NCBI GenBank assembly: GCA_949290445.1
Contig: CASERW010000019.1
Span: forward strand, 1-38,554
Direction of reading: 5' to 3'
Source: Aeriscardovia aeriphila
GTDB lineage: Bacteria; Actinomycetota; Actinomycetes; Actinomycetales; Bifidobacteriaceae
Length of the DNA: 38,554 nt
Both the position numbers and the translations under genes were made by a program. The notes under the pieces were generated by a model, which had not been told where the DNA came from, searched no databases, and saw only the letters and a program-made list of their open reading frames with translations. This document shows positions 1-9,241 of the stretch, piece by piece; within the stretch, counting starts at the first letter, position 1, and every line of letters starts with the position of its first letter.

Positions 1-297
1 CACTTCGCCATCGAAGCGGGAAAAGACCAAGTTACACTCCTCACATGTACCCCGTATGGCGTCAACAATAAACGTATGCTCGTTACAGGTCAGAGAGTGA
101 AAATTCCTGATCCTGCACCTGACCCGAAAACTGTTCCACAAGATCATCCAGAATACTGGCTTATCGCTGGTGTTGTTGTAGTTTGGCTGTTATTTATCCT
201 CTTTGTTTTGTTGATTATCAATAAGAGAAAGAAGCGTTCTGCTCGTTCACTCCCAGCACAGCACATGGCAGCGTATAATAAAAATAAGAGAGCTTGA
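1..297 (+). CDS. Class C sortase, C-terminal part (5' end outside window)
   Basis: Only the last 98 residues are present; the gene enters from the left edge in frame 1. Sortases are membrane transpeptidases that cleave LPXTG-like signals and join surface proteins to the wall or to pilus subunits. The visible part begins just before the catalytic strand: TLLTCTPYGVNNKR carries the active-site Cys (residue 16 of the fragment) and the conserved Arg nine residues later. The TCTPYG(V/I)N form is typical of class C (pilus-type) sortases. A C-terminal membrane segment of about 25 residues (YWLIAG to LLIIN) is followed by a basic tail, also usual for class C. The gene for a large sortase substrate starts 55 bp downstream with no terminator between, so the two are probably co-transcribed. 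The family call is strong; whether it polymerises pili cannot be seen here. Confidence 0.88.
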   Translation, partial: HFAIEAGKDQVTLLTCTPYGVNNKRMLVTGQRVKIPDPAPDPKTVPQDHPEYWLIAGVVVVWLLFILFVLLIINKRKKRSARSLPAQHMAAYNKNKRA

Positions 298-352: not shown

Positions 353-3300
353 ATGAAGAAGTATATTCAGCCCTATGCGAATCGTACGTCGATGCGTCAT
401 CGTGTAAACGCCATTATTGCTGTTCTGCTCAGTGTAGTCATGATTGTAGGAATGGCTTCAGGAATCGTTCCAGCAATCCTGCCAATCTTGAAGCATGCCC
501 AAGCAGCTGAACAGACACCAGCGTATGTGACGGCAGGCTTAGTGAAGAATTCCGACGGGACAGGCTTCGGAACAACAAACCAGAGCTTCATCAACTCTGA
601 GAATGGCTTTGAAGTGGGAGATAACGGTCCACATGATGGAGTTGTTTCCTCTGGCGATGTGGTGAGCTACAACCTGAAGCTCGCGTTCACTGCGTCCAAG
701 AAGCGTGCTGTTCGTGTACGCTGGACTTTTGATAATGCGCCATATTTGGAAGGCTCAAACGCTTTCTGCTTCTCTGGCTCTCAAGTTCAGGCAATTAAGC
801 AAGACGATGGTTCCTGCATCTTTATCGTTCCTACCGGCGCTGTGGAATCTCTCACCCGTGAAGTGTACTTGAAGGCAAAGGACACCGGTGGTCGCGTTGT
901 GCCGGATCAGCGTGCTGTGCTCACTATTGAGCGAGTCGAGCAAGACCATGATGGTAACTGGGTTCTTGCTGGTCAGCAGATTGTCAATGAAACCTCCCCG
1001 GTGACGGTGGTGTCCGCTCCTGCAGCTGATGTGACAATCCGCAACTATTCCAATTCCTCTTCAGAGCGCCGCACGTGGATGAGTGAAAATGGTGATTCTA
1101 CAGGCTACTTCGACTTGGTCGTTGAACCATTGAGCTACCCGGGCTGGTCGACACATGGTGCATCCACCTCGGGAGCATGGTGGGGAACAGTAAATGTAGC
1201 CACATTCCCTCAGGAGGTCACCTGGCAGCTGAAGCATACTGTCACCGACGCTGATGGAAGCACTCACGAAGAAGTAGTGGATGTTCCCCGTACTGGTGAT
1301 ACCTTGACGCTGCCGAAAATCCACGGTGACGCACAGCTCATCTGGACAGCTCCCAATACCATCATGGGAGATGATTGGAAAGAAAATCAGACGAAGTCTT
1401 TCGACATTCAGATTCTCCCCGACAAGAAGAGCTTCTCTTCTGATGATGGCTCCGCTCAAGCATTGCTCAATATGAGTACCGGCACTGAGCCTGGTCTGAA
1501 CCAGCCGAAGGATTACAACACTCGTAATGACGAGATCAATTCGCAGAAGGGCTATCCTTACCCGAATAACGACTGGTCGCGTGCGAATATGACCCGTCCA
1601 TCGCCATCTCCTTCGCCAGGTGGCAAGGATATTACTCGTCCGTGGACATGGGGTCGTACCGTCTTTGATCCTGCAAATCAGGATTTCGATAAAGCACAAC
1701 AGGAAAGGTCTGTTTCTGCTCATACCGGCGATGGCTCAGATGTCGTATCGCAAAATACGCAGGTCCGCATTCGCCTTGCCTATGACACTGCCTACTACCA
1801 TCCGGTTGCTGGTCAGCCCATTGTTCTGGAGGACTTCTGGCGCAAAGATGAGCAGTTCTGGGACGGCGATGTTGACCAACTCAAGGTTGTTCAAAAATAT
1901 GACCAAACTAGTCTTCACCCTGATTGGAAATCTTTCGAAACTACGCTGACTCGCGGCGAAGATTATGACGTCTACTACACCACAACAGACCCTGCTATTA
2001 CTCCAACTGGTAATCTTCAATGGCGTTCAGTGGGAGATAATTGGACTCTGAATCCTCCAGCTCAAAGAGATAAGTCTATTGTGGGTATCCGCTTTGTCAT
2101 TAAGGGCGACAAAGTTAACTACAACTACGGGCGTATTACAGCAAGCTTCGTCGCACGCGCGGGCCTCCCTCATGACCCTGACCACCCAGACCAGTTGGCC
2201 ACGGGTGATGGTGAAGTTGCTGACTACATGCAGTCGACATGGTATTCGCAGCACGAAGGCAGCGATCAGCCAAGTGAAATGCGCAGCACCAACGACAACT
2301 ACTACAACGTCACCCAGCCACGTGACCCTACAGCTGACCTTGAAATCGAACTCGAAGCGGAAAGCCCTAACGGAACGAAGCGTGATGCGGGTAATGCACT
2401 TCCGGGTGATTTGGCGCACTTTACTTTGACGCCGGTTGTCAAGGGCATCATGCTTTCTGGTACAGCGGTCAAGCCAGAGATTCGCATTCCGCTTCCTGAC
2501 GGCATGCTGTCGCCTCGCATGTACAAGGGGCCGTGGAACTTGCGTGTGGAAGAGGTCGATGGCCAGAAGTACATCGTTCTCACTCCTAACACCGAGGATG
2601 GCAAGTTCACCCCAACCGTGGATATTCACGGTGATGCCACACTACCTAAAATCGAGTTCTACACGGATATTGGAAACCGTGCCGCGGGCTTGATTATGGC
2701 TAATGCTGTTCTCACTGTCGATACCGATGCTAATGGTTCTGTTCCTGCTAAGACGACCACTCCTGTGGCGCGTAACGCACAGCTGCAGATCGGTTCGAAC
2801 TGGGCACAAGGTGCAGCGCTGGACGCTATTAAGCCTCAGGTCGAAGTGCGCGATCAAATCGGCTACGAATTCAACATCGCCGCTCGCGGTACTGGCCGTG
2901 AAGGTACATCGACCACGGTTATTCGTTTGCCTGCCTCCGACACTGATAAGGCTATGCGCGGTAAAGGCTGCTCTTCCGATGAGCAGGATGCCACGGACTG
3001 CCAAGGCCTTGACGGAACATGGAATAGTTATGAGAGCGGCTACAGCCAGTATCACGGCGGGTGGAAGTTCTCCTCTCCAGTAACTCTGGAACAAGATGAC
3101 TCCACTCCAACTGAGTTCGCCTATGCGGTCGATAACATCTACAGTGAAGACCCTGCTGACTACAAGTGGATGACGTGGGATGAACTGCAGAAGCTCCCTG
3201 AAGACCAGCGTAAGGTTACCGCAATACGTGTTGTCAGCACCTTTACTGATACGACTGACCCTACCGATGGAACATCACTGGGCATTGCAGCCGCTCACGG

Positions 3301-6300
3301 TAGCTTCAACCTTGAGATTACTGACACCAACCAGGCGAACGATAAGTACGTCGCGTGGATTGGTAAGTCGCGCTTCACCCAAGAGATTCCACCGGATAAG
3401 CAGGCTCCGACTGTTCCATTCCCAGCAGTGGTCACCACTGTTGCAGGAACACTTTCCGGTACCGTGTGGTGGGATCAAGACCGCAGCACCACCATCGGTA
3501 AGAAGGAAGAGCGCATTGAAGGCGTGAACGTCAGCCTGTGGATGGTCGACAAGGAAGGCAGCAAGCTTTCCGATAAGCCATATGCCATCCAGAAAACTGA
3601 TGAACAAGGCTTCTACAAGTTCACCAACTTGCATTCTGGCAACTACCTTGTCACCGTTGAACGTCACGACGGTACCGTTACCGACACTGGCGTTCAAACA
3701 CTGGTAAATACCTACTACAACCAGCAGAAGGACGTTGAGCGAACCCGCACGTACAAGAAGGTGCTGGACCAAACGCTACCTGACAACTCGGGAACGATTG
3801 CTCTTCCTGCTGCGCAGGATGTTACCAAGGTGGACTTTGGCTACATCAAGCCTGACCCGAAGGTGACTCTTGATAAGACGACCCAGCAGTTCACGTGTAC
3901 AGACGAGCGTTGCCACGTAGCCTGGGACGTTGTCGTCAACAACCCGGGTACGGAACCACTTCCTACGAGCTCGGTGATGACTGACCGCATGTCCAAGGAC
4001 GTCACTCGCGTTCAGGTAACTGTCGGTACACACACAAGCTCGCCGAAACCGATGTCCTTCACTTCCGTGTCTAATGGTTATAACCACACCGTGGCACTCG
4101 ACCAGCAAGGCCATATTTGGACGTGGGGCGATAACTCGCACTACCAGTTGGGTGATGGCACGAATGTAAGCCGTACCACGCCGAAGCAGATCACGGTGAA
4201 TAACGATCCAAGCTTGAAGTTCGTTCAGGTGGAAGCTGGCGAAGACCACACCATGGCTGTTGATTCCCAAGGTCGTTTGTGGGGCTGGGGTTTGAATGAC
4301 CGCTGGCAGGTGACAGGTAACCCACAGGCTCTCCTCAAGTCGACAGGCGGAGCATATAACGGTAAGCCATCATTGAATTCCGGTTTGTGGGAGATTACTT
4401 CCCCTCGCTTGGTGGATTTCAAAGACCCTCAAGGCAATGAGCTGAAGACGACGAGTGGACAGCCAATCAAAGTCGCTTCCGTTTCATCACGCTACGCTAC
4501 CACTATTGTCATCGACCAAGAAGGCAAGCTGTGGAGCTGGGGTTGGAACTGGGGCTTTGCTGCAGGCCAATCCAAAATCCCTACAAGTTGGGTTGTTCCT
4601 ATCGCACCAGTGCAGACCTGTGACTCTAACTGCAACGCCAAGAAGGATGGTATTGGTAATCTCCCTTCAAACGTAACGTTCAGCAAGGTCGTTACTGGTG
4701 ACCGATTCGCCCTTGCATTGGGTACTAACGGTGAAGTCTACGGCTTTGGTGGAGAGCTGTGGGGCGAACAGGGTAGGTCTTCTACGGCTGCAGGTAACTA
4801 TCCTCCAGCCCGTTTGACCTTTGCAGTTGGCCTCGCCAAGGATATCGCTGCATCAGAGAACAGTACCTTCATTACCGGCATTGATGGAAATGTCTATGTT
4901 GCAGGACGTAACGATTTCGGCCAGTTAGGCTTGGGTTATAAGAATGGCTCGACTACTGCACGTTGGCTCAACAACACCTACCAGAAGTCTGATTCGGTGT
5001 CTGCTCTGAAGCCAACCGAGATGTGGGGAGGTGATTCCAACACTGTTGCTTTGGCAGCAGATGGATCCCTTTACGCATGGGGCGGCAATAAGAGCGGTCA
5101 GCTCGGAGAATCTGCGAATGGTCAATTGCAGACGAGCCCAGTGAAGCTGGTGGATGCTTCCTTGAATCCGCAGATGGCTGCGGTGTCATCAAAGCGTTCA
5201 GAATTGCACGGTTGGACGGATTCGAGTAATGCTCCCGTCCAAAGCAACTTCCCTGCGGCTGACATTGGCTATATCACTGCCCTCGTGGACGGCAAAGTCG
5301 ATGAAACGACAGCTATTGCTGGCTTCGGAAACGATGCCAACGGGCAGTTGGGCGACGGTAAGACGACTACCGACCCAGTAACAAAGATGACCTTCGCGGC
5401 AATTCCATTCGATTTCACTGCTCAACCACCAGCAGACCCATCTGCTCAGAGCATCGACCCTGTATCGACAGTGGATAAGGGTAGTTATGTAGAACGAACA
5501 TACAACCCTCTGCAAGAAGTTCCTGCAGGCGGCCAGCTCGTCTTCCACATCACCGGTGAGATGATCCGACGCAATGAAGACCAGCGCGTGTTCAACCAAG
5601 CCTTCTTCACTTCGGATAAAACTCCATACTCTGTCACCACGGATGGCGAAGTCACGCAAGGTGTGCCACACGCTATCAACGAAAAGGCAAGCACACCAAG
5701 CGTGCCTGACGTATCCAAGCTGGACACCACCACGCTCGACATCACAGGTAATAAAACCTGCATGACAGGCACGGATGATGCCACAGCAGAGCACTCCTTC
5801 GCACTCTCAGGAGAAGACTCCTGCGACCAAGTGGGCTTGGTCATTCCTCACTCTTCTGTCACGCCAGTGCTGGGCTCCATTTCTGGTGTGATGTGGAGAG
5901 ATAACAACAAGGATGGCAAGCGCGACCCTAACGAGCCTGTTGTGCCAGGAATTAAGGTGTACTTGCTCGACTCCAACGGAAACCGCATCCCCGGTTATGA
6001 AACCATCACCGACGAAAACGGTGCATACAGTTTCACTGACCTCGAACTGGCCACATACCGTGTTCAGTTCAGCGAAGTACCACGCTCACCATTCACCCAA
6101 AGCGATGTGAATGATAGCAACCCGACAACTGATATGAGCTCGGATGATTCTGACGTCTCCTTCGATAAGGACACGTACGGAATGGATACAGCTATCATCA
6201 CCTTGACCACAGAACAGAAGGATAAAGAGCACATCGATGCCGGTGTGCTTCCTGCCAAGCCATGGATGGGTGCTATGCCACAAACAGGCCTCGGTTGGTG

Positions 6301-6388
6301 GGTGTTCGTCCTGCTCGGTTCGGCTCTTCTCACTTTCGCAGGTGCCGCATGGGAGTTGACTCGCAAGGACGACAGCGTGCGCGAGTAA
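353..6388 (+). CDS. Large LPXTG-type surface protein with SdrD-B-like domains and RCC1-like propeller
   Basis: Predicted wall-anchored surface protein of 2011 residues. I chose the ATG at 353 because AGAGGAAGG lies just upstream and the protein then opens with a basic N-region and a hydrophobic signal segment (about residues 20-50, ending near AQAAEQ). An in-frame GTG at 311 would add 14 residues. Residues about 50-1030 are unassigned and probably beta-rich. About 1032-1161 is an SdrD-B/Cna-B-like domain (GTLSGTVWWDQD start). About 1167-1230 resembles a DUF11-type beta domain. About 1236-1690 holds seven RCC1-like units (pattern HTVALDQQGHIWTWGDN then QLGDG). About 1841-1970 is a second SdrD-B-like domain (SISGVMWRDNNKDGKRDP). 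The C-terminus has the sorting signal MPQTG (1975-1979), a hydrophobic stretch and a charged tail. The preceding gene is a class C sortase, the likely processing enzyme. Role inferred: adhesin or pilus-associated surface protein; the ligand is unknown. Confidence 0.88.
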   Translation: MKKYIQPYANRTSMRHRVNAIIAVLLSVVMIVGMASGIVPAILPILKHAQAAEQTPAYVTAGLVKNSDGTGFGTTNQSFINSENGFEVGDNGPHDGVVSSGDVVSYNLKLAFTASKKRAVRVRWTFDNAPYLEGSNAFCFSGSQVQAIKQDDGSCIFIVPTGAVESLTREVYLKAKDTGGRVVPDQRAVLTIERVEQDHDGNWVLAGQQIVNETSPVTVVSAPAADVTIRNYSNSSSERRTWMSENGDSTGYFDLVVEPLSYPGWSTHGASTSGAWWGTVNVATFPQEVTWQLKHTVTDADGSTHEEVVDVPRTGDTLTLPKIHGDAQLIWTAPNTIMGDDWKENQTKSFDIQILPDKKSFSSDDGSAQALLNMSTGTEPGLNQPKDYNTRNDEINSQKGYPYPNNDWSRANMTRPSPSPSPGGKDITRPWTWGRTVFDPANQDFDKAQQERSVSAHTGDGSDVVSQNTQVRIRLAYDTAYYHPVAGQPIVLEDFWRKDEQFWDGDVDQLKVVQKYDQTSLHPDWKSFETTLTRGEDYDVYYTTTDPAITPTGNLQWRSVGDNWTLNPPAQRDKSIVGIRFVIKGDKVNYNYGRITASFVARAGLPHDPDHPDQLATGDGEVADYMQSTWYSQHEGSDQPSEMRSTNDNYYNVTQPRDPTADLEIELEAESPNGTKRDAGNALPGDLAHFTLTPVVKGIMLSGTAVKPEIRIPLPDGMLSPRMYKGPWNLRVEEVDGQKYIVLTPNTEDGKFTPTVDIHGDATLPKIEFYTDIGNRAAGLIMANAVLTVDTDANGSVPAKTTTPVARNAQLQIGSNWAQGAALDAIKPQVEVRDQIGYEFNIAARGTGREGTSTTVIRLPASDTDKAMRGKGCSSDEQDATDCQGLDGTWNSYESGYSQYHGGWKFSSPVTLEQDDSTPTEFAYAVDNIYSEDPADYKWMTWDELQKLPEDQRKVTAIRVVSTFTDTTDPTDGTSLGIAAAHGSFNLEITDTNQANDKYVAWIGKSRFTQEIPPDKQAPTVPFPAVVTTVAGTLSGTVWWDQDRSTTIGKKEERIEGVNVSLWMVDKEGSKLSDKPYAIQKTDEQGFYKFTNLHSGNYLVTVERHDGTVTDTGVQTLVNTYYNQQKDVERTRTYKKVLDQTLPDNSGTIALPAAQDVTKVDFGYIKPDPKVTLDKTTQQFTCTDERCHVAWDVVVNNPGTEPLPTSSVMTDRMSKDVTRVQVTVGTHTSSPKPMSFTSVSNGYNHTVALDQQGHIWTWGDNSHYQLGDGTNVSRTTPKQITVNNDPSLKFVQVEAGEDHTMAVDSQGRLWGWGLNDRWQVTGNPQALLKSTGGAYNGKPSLNSGLWEITSPRLVDFKDPQGNELKTTSGQPIKVASVSSRYATTIVIDQEGKLWSWGWNWGFAAGQSKIPTSWVVPIAPVQTCDSNCNAKKDGIGNLPSNVTFSKVVTGDRFALALGTNGEVYGFGGELWGEQGRSSTAAGNYPPARLTFAVGLAKDIAASENSTFITGIDGNVYVAGRNDFGQLGLGYKNGSTTARWLNNTYQKSDSVSALKPTEMWGGDSNTVALAADGSLYAWGGNKSGQLGESANGQLQTSPVKLVDASLNPQMAAVSSKRSELHGWTDSSNAPVQSNFPAADIGYITALVDGKVDETTAIAGFGNDANGQLGDGKTTTDPVTKMTFAAIPFDFTAQPPADPSAQSIDPVSTVDKGSYVERTYNPLQEVPAGGQLVFHITGEMIRRNEDQRVFNQAFFTSDKTPYSVTTDGEVTQGVPHAINEKASTPSVPDVSKLDTTTLDITGNKTCMTGTDDATAEHSFALSGEDSCDQVGLVIPHSSVTPVLGSISGVMWRDNNKDGKRDPNEPVVPGIKVYLLDSNGNRIPGYETITDENGAYSFTDLELATYRVQFSEVPRSPFTQSDVNDSNPTTDMSSDDSDVSFDKDTYGMDTAIITLTTEQKDKEHIDAGVLPAKPWMGAMPQTGLGWWVFVLLGSALLTFAGAAWELTRKDDSVRE

Positions 6389-6406
6389 TAACGAATAATT
6401 GGGAAA

Positions 6407-6450
6407 TGCCTCCACGGCATGCTGTGTTACCACAGTGTGCCGTGGAGGTA
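6407..6450 (+). terminator. Hairpin terminator after surface protein gene
   Basis: A 13-bp stem (TGCCTCCACGGCA at 6407-6419 against 6438-6450, one G-U pair) continues into an inner CTGTG/CACAG stem with a TTAC loop. It begins 18 bp after the stop codon. The downstream tract is TTACTATGTA, not a clean T-run, so termination may be incomplete. Confidence 0.6.
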
Positions 6451-6548
6451 TTACTATGTAAGTAGTATCCTGAATGATCTTCTGAGATGCACATGAGTAG
6501 CAAAGAGGCTACGGCAAGTGCAGTGCTCAGCCGATAGGGGAGAGAAAC

Positions 6549-7847
6549 ATGGTAGGACCTAACTACTCGCAACGCTCAGAAGATTACTTACGCCCCAACG
6601 AGCCCGCCAAAAAACACAAGCGCGGCCGATTCGGTGGCCTCATCGTCACCCTCGTCATCATCATCGCCCTCATCGTCACCGCCGCTTACGTCATCCGATT
6701 TCGCAACTCTCATCACACTTTCGCAGCAGACCCGCGCACACCTAAGTCCGTGGAAAATGCGCTGTCAGACTATTCCAGCCGCATCAGGCAAGCTATTCTC
6801 AAACCGCAAGAAGATGCGGACGCAGAAGCCGCAGTCGGTGCAGTCACAGATGATGTGAGCAAACTGGCAATCTTGAACGCTACAGGATTAACAGAAAACG
6901 AATACCTTAAGCCCCAACAGGCAACAGTTAACCAAGTAGTTGCTTCCTTCACCAAAAAGCCGAGCGGCTACGAAGTACTGACCTACCAGACGAGTGTCGT
7001 GGAATATACGCCGCAGGAAGGTACGACGATCACCATTAATGGTGTGAAAAAGGACCTGCTTGTCACCTCAACATCGCAAATGCATCGCTTGAGCATGAAA
7101 GCTGAAAATGGGATTGGCAATCTCAGTGTGAACAAGGATGAGGTAGTGTCACCCTCTGCTGCGCCGACAGCCACCACCATGCTCGCCACACTGCCGCAAG
7201 AAGACGGCGATGCAGCCAAACCAGCAAGCTCAAGTGCCACCTCAGCCAGCGGCTTTAACCCGGGACGAGCCGTAGAATATGCGGAAAACTGGGCGCGAGT
7301 GGGAGCAGAAAGCGTCGACGATGCAGAAGTGCGCGGCGGACGCTACCCGGGCGAAGTGCTCAACCAAAAGTACCCCTATTACGGCAACGACAATTGCGCG
7401 AACTTCGTCTCCCAAGCCCTCGCGGCCGGAGGGCTGAAGCGCGCCAACTCGCTCAAACTCGACGTGAAGAATCCGGATGCCTGGAGCGACGGGCTGTGGC
7501 TCACCCTTGGGGTGAAAGCGACCCGAACCTGGACTCTCGCTAATGCCAACTTCGCGTACATGCTCTCCAAATCTGGCCACTACGTCCAAGCCGGAGAAGC
7601 GGATGGCAAGAGCATGGAGCAGATGGCCGGTTTGAAGCCCGGCTCGCTCATCTACGCTGCGTGGAATGGCGGAGAAAACAAGGACCATGTGGCCCTCGTC
7701 GTCGGGCAACTGAGCCGCGGCAAGAAGTCGCAGCCGATCATCTCGCAAAAAGGCTGGAACCAGTACAACATGCCGTTGAGTGCTCACCGCGCCCACGAGC
7801 TGCAGCAGCACAAGAACGCGCGCTGGACGGCGCTGGCAGTGAAGTAG
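6549..7847 (+). CDS. Membrane-anchored putative amidase (Amidase_6-like domain)
   Basis: Protein of 432 residues. A basic cytoplasmic N-tail (KKHKRGRFGG) precedes one membrane helix at about residues 30-51, leaving the rest outside the cell. Residues about 55-235 are a spacer ending in an Ala/Ser/Pro-rich linker. The C-terminal 200 residues match the putative amidase domain pattern: VEYAENWA, then NDNCANFVSQALAAGG with the likely nucleophile Cys283, and KDHVALVVG with the likely His380. This fold is cysteine-peptidase-like (CHAP/NlpC-P60 relatives) and is often found on cell-wall enzymes. The start ATG follows GGGGAGAG with good spacing. It lies between a surface-protein gene and a FemAB-type gene, which supports a peptidoglycan role. 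The domain call is good; substrate and activity are inferred. Confidence 0.75.
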   Translation: MVGPNYSQRSEDYLRPNEPAKKHKRGRFGGLIVTLVIIIALIVTAAYVIRFRNSHHTFAADPRTPKSVENALSDYSSRIRQAILKPQEDADAEAAVGAVTDDVSKLAILNATGLTENEYLKPQQATVNQVVASFTKKPSGYEVLTYQTSVVEYTPQEGTTITINGVKKDLLVTSTSQMHRLSMKAENGIGNLSVNKDEVVSPSAAPTATTMLATLPQEDGDAAKPASSSATSASGFNPGRAVEYAENWARVGAESVDDAEVRGGRYPGEVLNQKYPYYGNDNCANFVSQALAAGGLKRANSLKLDVKNPDAWSDGLWLTLGVKATRTWTLANANFAYMLSKSGHYVQAGEADGKSMEQMAGLKPGSLIYAAWNGGENKDHVALVVGQLSRGKKSQPIISQKGWNQYNMPLSAHRAHELQQHKNARWTALAVK

Positions 7848-7900
7848 TGACGCGCCACGGTAATTTTTGAACAATTAATTCCACCGAGAGGGAGGGGCAC

Positions 7901-8929
7901 ATGCTCCGCGTTGATGAGTTGACAGAAGAACAGGTTCGCGCCTTGCACGACGAACACCACATGGTCAGCCCGATCGAGCAGACGCCAGCTTGGGCGTGCT
8001 ACCAGGCGAGCATCGAAGGCCGCGAGCCGTGGGGATGGCTGGGAATCTATGAGGATGAGCAGTTCCTCGCCTACGCCCTCGCCATTGCATACCATACGCA
8101 CGGCTACACGTACCTCAACGTGCTTCATGGGCCATGCTGGGTTAATAAGCCCGACGAGCAGCGGGAAACGCAGGCTTTCGCCGCGCTGCGCAGATTTGTT
8201 CATAGCCGCGATAAGTCCGTGGTTTTTGTGAGATTAGCAGCGTGGAATGCAACCCTGACGAGCCCTGTTCTTTCCACTATTGCGTATGATTCGACAGTCG
8301 TGGTTGACTTGCATGGTAGCGATGAGGAAATTTTGAGGCGCATGCCGAGCCGTGGGCGTGCAAACGTTCGCAAAGCGTTGCGTGAAAGCCCAGCTGAGTG
8401 CGCGGATGAGACGCAGCGGGCTCTTCGGAGCTTTGACGAGTATTACGGGGTGATGGTGGATACCGCTCAGCGCGATGGTTTCACTCCTGCTCCGGCCAGC
8501 ACCTATGCTTCGATGTTGCGTGAATTGGGCCCCGAGCACGCCCGGCTGTACGTAGGCCGAATTGACGGGGTGGTGTCGAATTGGTGCTTGATGACGCTCA
8601 ATGATAATCAGGCGGTGTACTACTACGGATGCATGAGTACGGCCGTTCGCAAGTTGCGTGCACCGGACAAGCTGTTCTACTACGCTTTCTGCGACCTGGG
8701 CCGGCAGGGTTATGACACTCTCGACATGATGGGCATTGGTTCGCCGTTCTGCCCGCAGCTCAACACGCTCAACCAGTTCAAAACGAAATTTGCGCCTGAG
8801 ATTACCACTATTGCTCCGGCACGAGATCTGCCTGTTCGTTCGCATTTCTATGCGGCCTTAGTTCAGGCCAAAGCGCTGCGTGCCAAGTTGCGTACTGTTC
8901 TGCGCACGCTGAAGAGCCAAGCGAAGTAG
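7901..8929 (+). CDS. FemAB-family peptidoglycan-bridge aminoacyltransferase
   Basis: Protein of 342 residues resembling the FemA/FemB/FemX family. These enzymes use aminoacyl-tRNA to add residues to the peptide bridge of lipid-linked peptidoglycan precursors. The sequence shows paired GNAT-like halves: an N-terminal part with TPAWACYQ and YLNVLHGPCW, and a C-terminal part with RGRANVRKAL, LYVGRIDGVVSNWCL and AVYYYGCM. The ending MMGIGSPFCPQLNTLNQFKTKF matches the Fem-type pattern of a late G(I/V)xG segment followed by (F)KxxF. It is shorter than classical FemA (about 400) and lacks an obvious coiled-coil arm, closer to FemX-like proteins. A strong GAGGGAGGGG precedes the ATG. It starts 53 bp after the amidase gene and may share its transcript. 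Which amino acid it adds is not deducible. Confidence 0.75.
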   Translation: MLRVDELTEEQVRALHDEHHMVSPIEQTPAWACYQASIEGREPWGWLGIYEDEQFLAYALAIAYHTHGYTYLNVLHGPCWVNKPDEQRETQAFAALRRFVHSRDKSVVFVRLAAWNATLTSPVLSTIAYDSTVVVDLHGSDEEILRRMPSRGRANVRKALRESPAECADETQRALRSFDEYYGVMVDTAQRDGFTPAPASTYASMLRELGPEHARLYVGRIDGVVSNWCLMTLNDNQAVYYYGCMSTAVRKLRAPDKLFYYAFCDLGRQGYDTLDMMGIGSPFCPQLNTLNQFKTKFAPEITTIAPARDLPVRSHFYAALVQAKALRAKLRTVLRTLKSQAK

Positions 8930-9057: not shown

Positions 9058-9133
9058 TGGTGGCTCCGAACGGTGTCGATCCGTTGACCTCACGATTTTC
9101 AGTCGTACGCTCTACCAACTGAGCTACAGAGCC
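9058..9133 (-). tRNA. tRNA-Phe (GAA)
   Basis: A cloverleaf can be drawn on the minus strand: acceptor GGCTCTG pairs with CGGAGCC (one G-U), the D arm contains AGCTCAGTTGGTAGAGC, the anticodon loop is CTGAAAA with GAA, and the T arm has GTTCGG-type pairing. CCA is encoded (9060-9058). It lies 34 bp downstream of tRNA-Asp in the same direction. Confidence 0.95.
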
Positions 9134-9167
9134 AAAACAGCTTCCTAAAAGATTAGAAAACTGAAAG

Positions 9168-9241
9168 CGACCCGTAACGGACTTGAACCGTCGACCTCCG
9201 CCGTGACAGGGCGGCGCTCTAACCAACTGAGCTAACGGGCC
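9168..9241 (-). tRNA. tRNA-Asp (GTC)
   Basis: A minus-strand cloverleaf with acceptor GGCCCGT/ACGGGTC (one G-U), anticodon loop CTGTCAC with GTC, T loop GGTTCAAGTCC and discriminator G. CCA is not encoded. It is the first gene of a two-tRNA unit with tRNA-Phe. Confidence 0.95.

Follow-up and report, generated by a model that had tools for sequence, protein, structure and literature searches.

Background

Wall-anchored proteins with RCC1 repeats are already on record in the family Bifidobacteriaceae, since LPxTG proteins whose RCC1 domains comprise about seven repeats have been published from bee bifidobacteria, the Bifidobacterium asteroides group (PMC3447821, PMC4449606). Here we describe a gene in Aeriscardovia aeriphila, on contig CASERW010000019.1 of assembly GCA_949290445.1 (G000:C19 in our numbering, where G numbers denote genomes). 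The window that we analysed is the entire contig, 38554 bases, of an assembly of 1.52 Mb that is 84% complete. The gene encodes a wall-anchored protein of 2011 residues with a predicted RCC1-type propeller, and we think it probable that this protein belongs to a two-pilin pilus assembled by a sortase, as an ancillary pilin that most likely sits at the tip, with the propeller as its ligand-binding head. It is like the B. asteroides proteins in its family, in its wall-anchor motif and in having about seven diversified RCC1 repeats per domain, but the neighbouring domain is different, and here a DUF11-like domain encloses a single propeller, with genes for a pilin and a class C sortase alongside. 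The B. asteroides-type RCC1 surface protein is defined in PMC4449606 by a Flg_new (Listeria-Bacteroides) repeat ahead of the RCC1 domain; this repeat is not among the Pfam matches of the window protein up to an E value of 1. In the main texts of the two papers the word sortase does not occur, and pili are mentioned only as type IVb pili, in one of them.

The other systems that invite comparison are the tip pilins of sortase-assembled pili, which are the largest subunits and carry a globular binding domain on an immunoglobulin-like (Ig-like) stalk; class C sortases link the threonine of the LPxTG motif of the tip pilin to a lysine of the shaft pilin (PMC5536039). In the tip pilins RrgA and GBS104, the globular head is inserted between the halves of discontinuous Ig-like stalk domains (PMC7893114). 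There the head is a vWA domain with a metal ion-dependent adhesion site (MIDAS), and both D1 and D2 are split, whereas the window protein has an RCC1 propeller in one DUF11-like domain, and no vWA family is among its Pfam matches up to E 1. By analogy, the window protein may be described as having an RrgA-like layout in which a propeller replaces the vWA head.

The RCC1-type propellers of UVR8, RCC1 and the HERC RLD domains belong to eukaryotic intracellular proteins. The window protein shares with them a predicted RCC1-type fold at about 25% identity, and no common function is implied. BLIP-II is, like the window propeller, a bacterial RCC1-type propeller (VIA-align Z 23.6 over 240 residues), but it is a free secreted inhibitor that binds a protein and is not wall-anchored. 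Among the titles and abstract beginnings of the open-licence literature, we found no description of an RCC1 propeller nested in a DUF11 domain and linked to pili. One paper that appeared to join RCC1, pili and sortase, PMC8013792, was a false match, as rCC1 there stands for recombinant CEACAM1.

The RCC1 units and their predicted fold

The Pfam scan of the window protein gave 183 bits for PF25390, the RCC1-like domain (cut-off 150, E 1.2e-53), along with six stretches of RCC1_2 and three of RCC1, and all three PF00415 matches in the whole assembly (E up to 0.001) fall within the propeller gene. A hidden Markov model (HMM) of the single unit, built in this analysis with the window protein among its training proteins, located seven units, at residues 1236-1280, 1290-1324, 1375-1418, 1443-1486, 1496-1536, 1555-1599 and 1649-1677, of which the seventh is the weakest (17.7 bits) and the most altered. 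A first-pass annotation of this DNA had counted seven RCC1 units with a degenerate last one, and both PF25390 and the unit HMM confirm that count.

Residues 1234-1685 are predicted to form an RCC1-type propeller. In an AlphaFold2 model built from 29 input rows, most strands of blades one to six have block means of about 80 to 95 in the predicted local distance difference test (pLDDT), with low values in the loops between them; the whole-model mean is 68, and the stretch of blade seven ranges from 27 to 72. UVR8 is the best Foldseek match (E 6e-27), and VIA-align superimposes model residues 67-521, i.e. residues 1231-1685 of the protein, on 358 of the 370 residues of UVR8 (Z 44.8, root-mean-square deviation 2.2). 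Since 27 of the 29 input rows were RCC1 stretches from viral contigs, a control run was made with only the window sequence and that of a relative, L034. Its mean pLDDT was 46 and its best model still matches UVR8 (Z 23.3, 289 residues), with hardly any strand in 451-534 and with blade seven barely formed. The match lists of Foldseek and VIA-align were taken up by the propeller and say nothing of the fold of the host domain, for which solved structures of DUF11-like type may exist. Of the closed seven-bladed propeller expected by the first-pass annotation, the model shows an RCC1-like fold and a match to UVR8 over the whole ring, while the seventh-blade stretch itself is of low confidence in the model and almost strandless in the control. 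Because blade seven is predicted with such low confidence, the closure of the ring rests partly on the unit count.

The features of the locus are as follows, where residue r of the protein begins at window position 353+3(r-1), a start that agrees with the earlier numbering; an alternative start, GTG at 311, lies in the same frame.

1..297, forward strand: class C sortase gene (SrtC), its 3' end, truncated at the edge of the contig; contains the TLLTC active-site motif and the membrane segment of the C-terminus
353..6388, forward strand: propeller gene, encoding the wall-anchored protein of 2011 residues; ATG start at 353, preceded by an AGGAAGG-like site
353..508, forward strand: signal peptide region, residues 1-52; by eye, a hydrophobic stretch ending in KHAQAAEQ
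509..3445, forward strand: N-terminal region, about 980 residues; no Pfam match, but conserved among relatives
3446..3850, forward strand: first SdrD-B-like domain, residues about 1032-1166; second PF17210 stretch, position set from the GTLSGTVW start
3851..4051, forward strand: DUF11-like host domain, N half, residues 1167-1233; positions 1-75 of the A3 profile (see below), E 1.1e-26, and predicted strands
4052..5425, forward strand: inserted seven-unit RCC1 propeller, units starting near residues 1234, 1288, 1372, 1441, 1494, 1552 and 1604; Pfam, unit HMM and predicted structure
5426..5866, forward strand: DUF11-like host domain, C half, residues about 1692-1838, up to a conserved DSCDQV motif; positions 60-205 of the A3 profile, and conservation
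5873..6247, forward strand: second SdrD-B-like domain, residues 1841-1965; best PF17210 stretch, 1842-1964
6275..6385, forward strand: sorting signal MPQTG, membrane segment and charged tail, residues 1975-2011; from the sequence

The better PF17210 stretch lies after the propeller module and the other is placed before it, in keeping with the stalk of SdrD-B-like domains proposed earlier, and the second of these domains aligns to the corresponding place in the L038 protein. The span first given for the module was 4059-5520, and its end point falls some 95 bases inside the C half of the host.

Nesting in a DUF11-like host domain

Comparison of the flanks among relatives supports a propeller that is nested inside one discontinuous DUF11-like domain. 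With the inserts removed, which measure some 365-700 residues in the window and its relatives, the flanks of nine relatives, the window included, align as one conserved domain. This alignment, A3, has nine rows from eight genomes, ten proteins having been joined in all; the window protein, whose two halves match A3, is itself one of the rows. The joined flanks of G462, a genome from another family of the order, match Pfam DUF11 (PF01345) at 36.2 bits, above the cut-off of 24.6 (E 8e-9), and the match covers residues 26-116 and spans the junction. Those of G627 (24.2 bits) and G003 (23.7 bits, with 16.5 for the N half alone) match across the junction just below the cut-off. Unlike the DUF11 domain of Pfam, the host domain is interrupted in the window and its relatives, and that of the window itself lies below detection, its joined flanks having no Pfam match at E up to 10; its link to DUF11 thus runs through the relatives. 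Against Pfam at E up to 1, two of the nine A3 rows match DUF11 and four match DUF7507. In the predicted structure each flank has four or five strands, and the last 80 or so residues of the C half are predicted with low confidence.

A search of 189 Bifidobacteriaceae genomes with the joined profile found 12 that match at E up to 0.01, eight of which had supplied the A3 rows; all but one of these 12 show the N match apart from the C match. The remaining genome, G141, has an uninterrupted DUF11 domain (match 3-144, E 0.001). Compared with A3, this domain gave a local alignment of only 35 residues, in the N half (probability 93), and a global one of 157 columns (probability 86), the reference levels being a probability of 20 for the G462 DUF11 domain and at most 0.3 for the six best of 30 shuffles; the comparison is not used here as evidence for the C half of the host. 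In the second family, four of 200 genomes match: G462 and G654 (two genes) with RCC1 units, G627 with another repeat, and G631 at a contig edge. When 396 genomes from across the order were searched, a single genome other than that of the window had the host domain at E up to 0.001. The nesting proposed by the first-pass annotation is supported in this way through the relatives. The two tests that it had named as able to refute its reading, one on a closed propeller in the predicted structure and one on independent folding of the flanking segments, left that reading unrefuted. The flanking strands that it named, VTLDKTTQQF and AWDVVVNNPG, are where it put them, and the related genomes in which it advised looking for the same architecture do contain it.

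Pilus genes beside the propeller gene

The sortase gene end that precedes the propeller gene scores 17.5 bits against Pfam Sortase (E 0.0036, profile positions 97-125), below the cut-off because only the end of the gene is present, and it is 83% identical to residues 231-326 of the sortase of G001, a genome of the same genus. Elsewhere in the A. aeriphila assembly, a FimA-type pilin gene, 95% identical to that of G001, and the N part of a sortase gene lie at the edge of contig C35. From the gene order in G001 we infer that C35 and the window contig adjoin and that the two sortase parts are one gene across an assembly gap. As to the gene context expected of such a pilin, namely a class C sortase with a shaft pilin, the window has the sortase end next to the propeller gene and the pilin gene is at the edge of the other contig. 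The protein itself bears the signals of a pilin, with MPQTG, membrane segment and charged tail at its C-terminus and, by eye, a hydrophobic segment at its N-terminus.

A pilin-type gene and a class C sortase gene also adjoin the propeller gene in G154 (two loci), G087, G081, G083 and G462. The six neighbouring sortases and that of G001 score 209-230 bits, against an NCBIfam class C cut-off of 160. The sorting motifs of pilin and propeller protein begin with the same letter, M or L, in six of the seven operons; in the seventh, G081, the open frame of the propeller protein ends without a sorting motif. G627 has a non-RCC1 gene followed by an LPxTG gene and a frame with a TLVTC motif. A YPK-type pattern, as in the VYPK pilin motif, is absent from the propeller protein, but the pattern is uninformative: a similar one shows no clear motif in the FimA proteins either.

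Several further observations concern these operons. In G001, a deletion has left only the last 43 codons of the propeller gene, directly after the sortase gene (L047, about 6481-6609), and the pilin and sortase frames are open. The G081 propeller gene has a run of ten C on the coding strand within its signal-peptide region (L038, 8448-8457), where slippage would switch the frame; this may be comparable to the G-tract pilus switch that has been reported in B. breve (PMC9187656). G081 also has a second, broken propeller gene (L228, about 2500-8050), with C-terminal pieces in other frames, a stop and a stretch of unread bases, and no sortase motif beside it lies in a sortase-like frame. The A. 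aeriphila assembly has a second pilin-sortase pair (G000:C6:9247-11913), whose sortase frame holds two stops. Downstream of the propeller gene, window positions 6549-8929 encode an Amidase_6 protein with a weak CHAP match and a FemAB-type transferase, so that the neighbourhood looks wall-related; beyond them, genes for tRNA-Phe and tRNA-Asp lie on the minus strand at 9058-9241, on account of which a 126-residue open frame there is spurious.

Variation of the inserts

Besides the window, RCC1 arrays are found in G043, G054, G081, G083, G087 and G154, and a degenerate one in G162. Exactly seven units were found in 13 of the 15 arrays counted, the exceptions being the arrays of six and one in G087, with unit matches accepted at a domain E of up to 10 or up to 5 depending on the protein set; several degenerate units are individually not significant (the first loop of L040, the seventh unit of L036 and some in L245). 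The count leaves out a stub of 11 residues in L039, the G162 array with its five units, isolated weak matches off the arrays in L038, L039, L040, L041 and L042, one and three weak matches in G021 and G003, and the multi-propeller proteins of genus g5. The host domains of G081 and G083 are each interrupted in two loops, with seven units per loop, the first-loop set of G083 being degenerate. In G087 (L037, 2200-7872, minus strand), the first loop holds six units and the second one, and four of the units compared are identical in DNA over 132 bases, which may reflect recent copying or a fault in the assembly.

The inserts of G003, G021, G107 and G627 consist of other repeats and fail to align with the RCC1 profile (probability at most 7.3); among the five relatives' inserts compared, only that of G162 does (probability 96). 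For seven of the ten joined proteins, the identity of the host domain was compared with that of the propeller, and it was the higher in all 21 pairs; between the window and L041, for instance, it is 45% against 33%.

RCC1 units also occur in other settings. In genus g5 of the same family, L048, L049, L050, L052 and L053 have several tandem RCC1 arrays per protein, and 22 genomes of this genus match the window protein at E up to 0.001, via the RCC1 region among the matches listed. The pattern WGxNxxGQLGxGT fits at least 120 stretches in viral contigs and, judged by such sequence patterns, RCC1 units are common in metagenomic viral sequence. In pattern scans with the propeller protein, three stretches of viral contigs fitted, none of them a relative, and 12 stretches of genome contigs did, of which one, L034, is a relative.

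Discussion

The interpretation that we consider probable is that a FimA-type shaft and the propeller protein would be joined by the neighbouring class C sortase. The head would be a seven-bladed RCC1-type propeller held in one loop of a DUF11-like beta-sandwich, and this host domain would sit between two SdrD-B-like stalk domains. Because the propeller is inserted in a loop of the host domain, both of its ends are tied to the stalk, and one propeller face may be held outward to bind a surface ligand, such as a host glycoprotein, mucus or another microbe. That the propeller is a ligand-binding head, as the first-pass annotation had suggested, is plausible, and the pilus-gene context strengthens this reading; both the tip position of the protein and ligand binding by the propeller are inferred.

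Several findings weigh against this interpretation. Blade seven is of low confidence, with model residues 444-489 and 519-529 at a pLDDT below 50, and the joined flanks of the window protein have no Pfam match of their own. The propeller is placed far along the chain, in its C-terminal third, and about 980 unassigned residues precede it, so the N-terminal region might be the outermost part. Neither the RCC1 copies of G043, G054 and G162 nor the non-RCC1 copies of G003, G021 and G107 showed a class C sortase motif in a scan of the neighbouring stretches read, some of which reach only a little beyond the gene. The same holds for both copies of G654, whose ends carry LPxAG-like motifs, and the LPxTG neighbour of the G054 copy is without a Pfam match at E up to 0.01.

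The same loci bear on the alternative that fares best, which we regard as rather unlikely: that the protein is a stand-alone adhesin, attached to the wall by a housekeeping sortase, with the pilus genes incidental and the propeller still a ligand-binding head. This would suit the G043, G054, G162 and G654 copies and the non-RCC1 copies of G003, G021 and G107, with no class C sortase motif in the stretches read, as well as the LPxTG-anchored RCC1 proteins of bee bifidobacteria, for which the main texts of PMC4449606 and PMC3447821 report no link to sortase pili. However, the propeller gene has pilin and class C sortase genes as its neighbours in the genome of the window, at six further loci and in the second family, and the sorting motifs match in six of seven operons.

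An improbable alternative is that the propeller would be a structural or protective module, i.e. a spacer or a shield against proteases, while the N-terminal region binds the ligand. The conservation of that region of about 980 residues among relatives fits such a division of labour, as do the different inserts carried by proteins or loci that share N-terminal parts (G003, G021). Yet the propeller is more divergent than the host domain in every one of the 21 pairs, and the type of insert changes while the host domain stays, which fits a changing binding surface better than a spacer. That two independent domains flank the propeller without any nesting is very improbable, for although the joined flanks of the window reach no Pfam family and the local alignment of the uninterrupted G141 domain covers the N half only, the G462 flanks match DUF11 across the junction with those of G627 and G003 just under the cut-off, 11 of the 12 genomes that have the host domain contain both halves together and in the right order, and each half has only four or five predicted strands.

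Returning to the protein as a tip pilin with a propeller head, a more general proposal can be put forth, which is possible though doubtful: the DUF11-like domain may be a general head socket of actinobacterial pilus tips, in which a fixed loop accepts closed propellers of unrelated repeat families. The loop would hold RCC1 units in most cases and, in G003, G021, G107 and G627, other DG.W/Y-type repeats that are candidate propellers. A second loop could hold another seven-unit array, as in G081 and in degenerate form in G083, which would give two-headed tips, and the six units and one unit of G087 might between them complete a single ring. The binding face would then be remodelled by recombination among blades that are nearly identical, with the stalk staying fixed.

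The tip pilin determines to what a piliated bacterium adheres, and among inserted heads the vWA domain is the one known best. A propeller as the inserted head in at least two families of the order would, if true, widen the range of pilus heads, and this reading would suggest a role for RCC1 genes of commensals. Because the host domain is conserved while the head changes, head swaps could probe what sets the specificity of adhesion.
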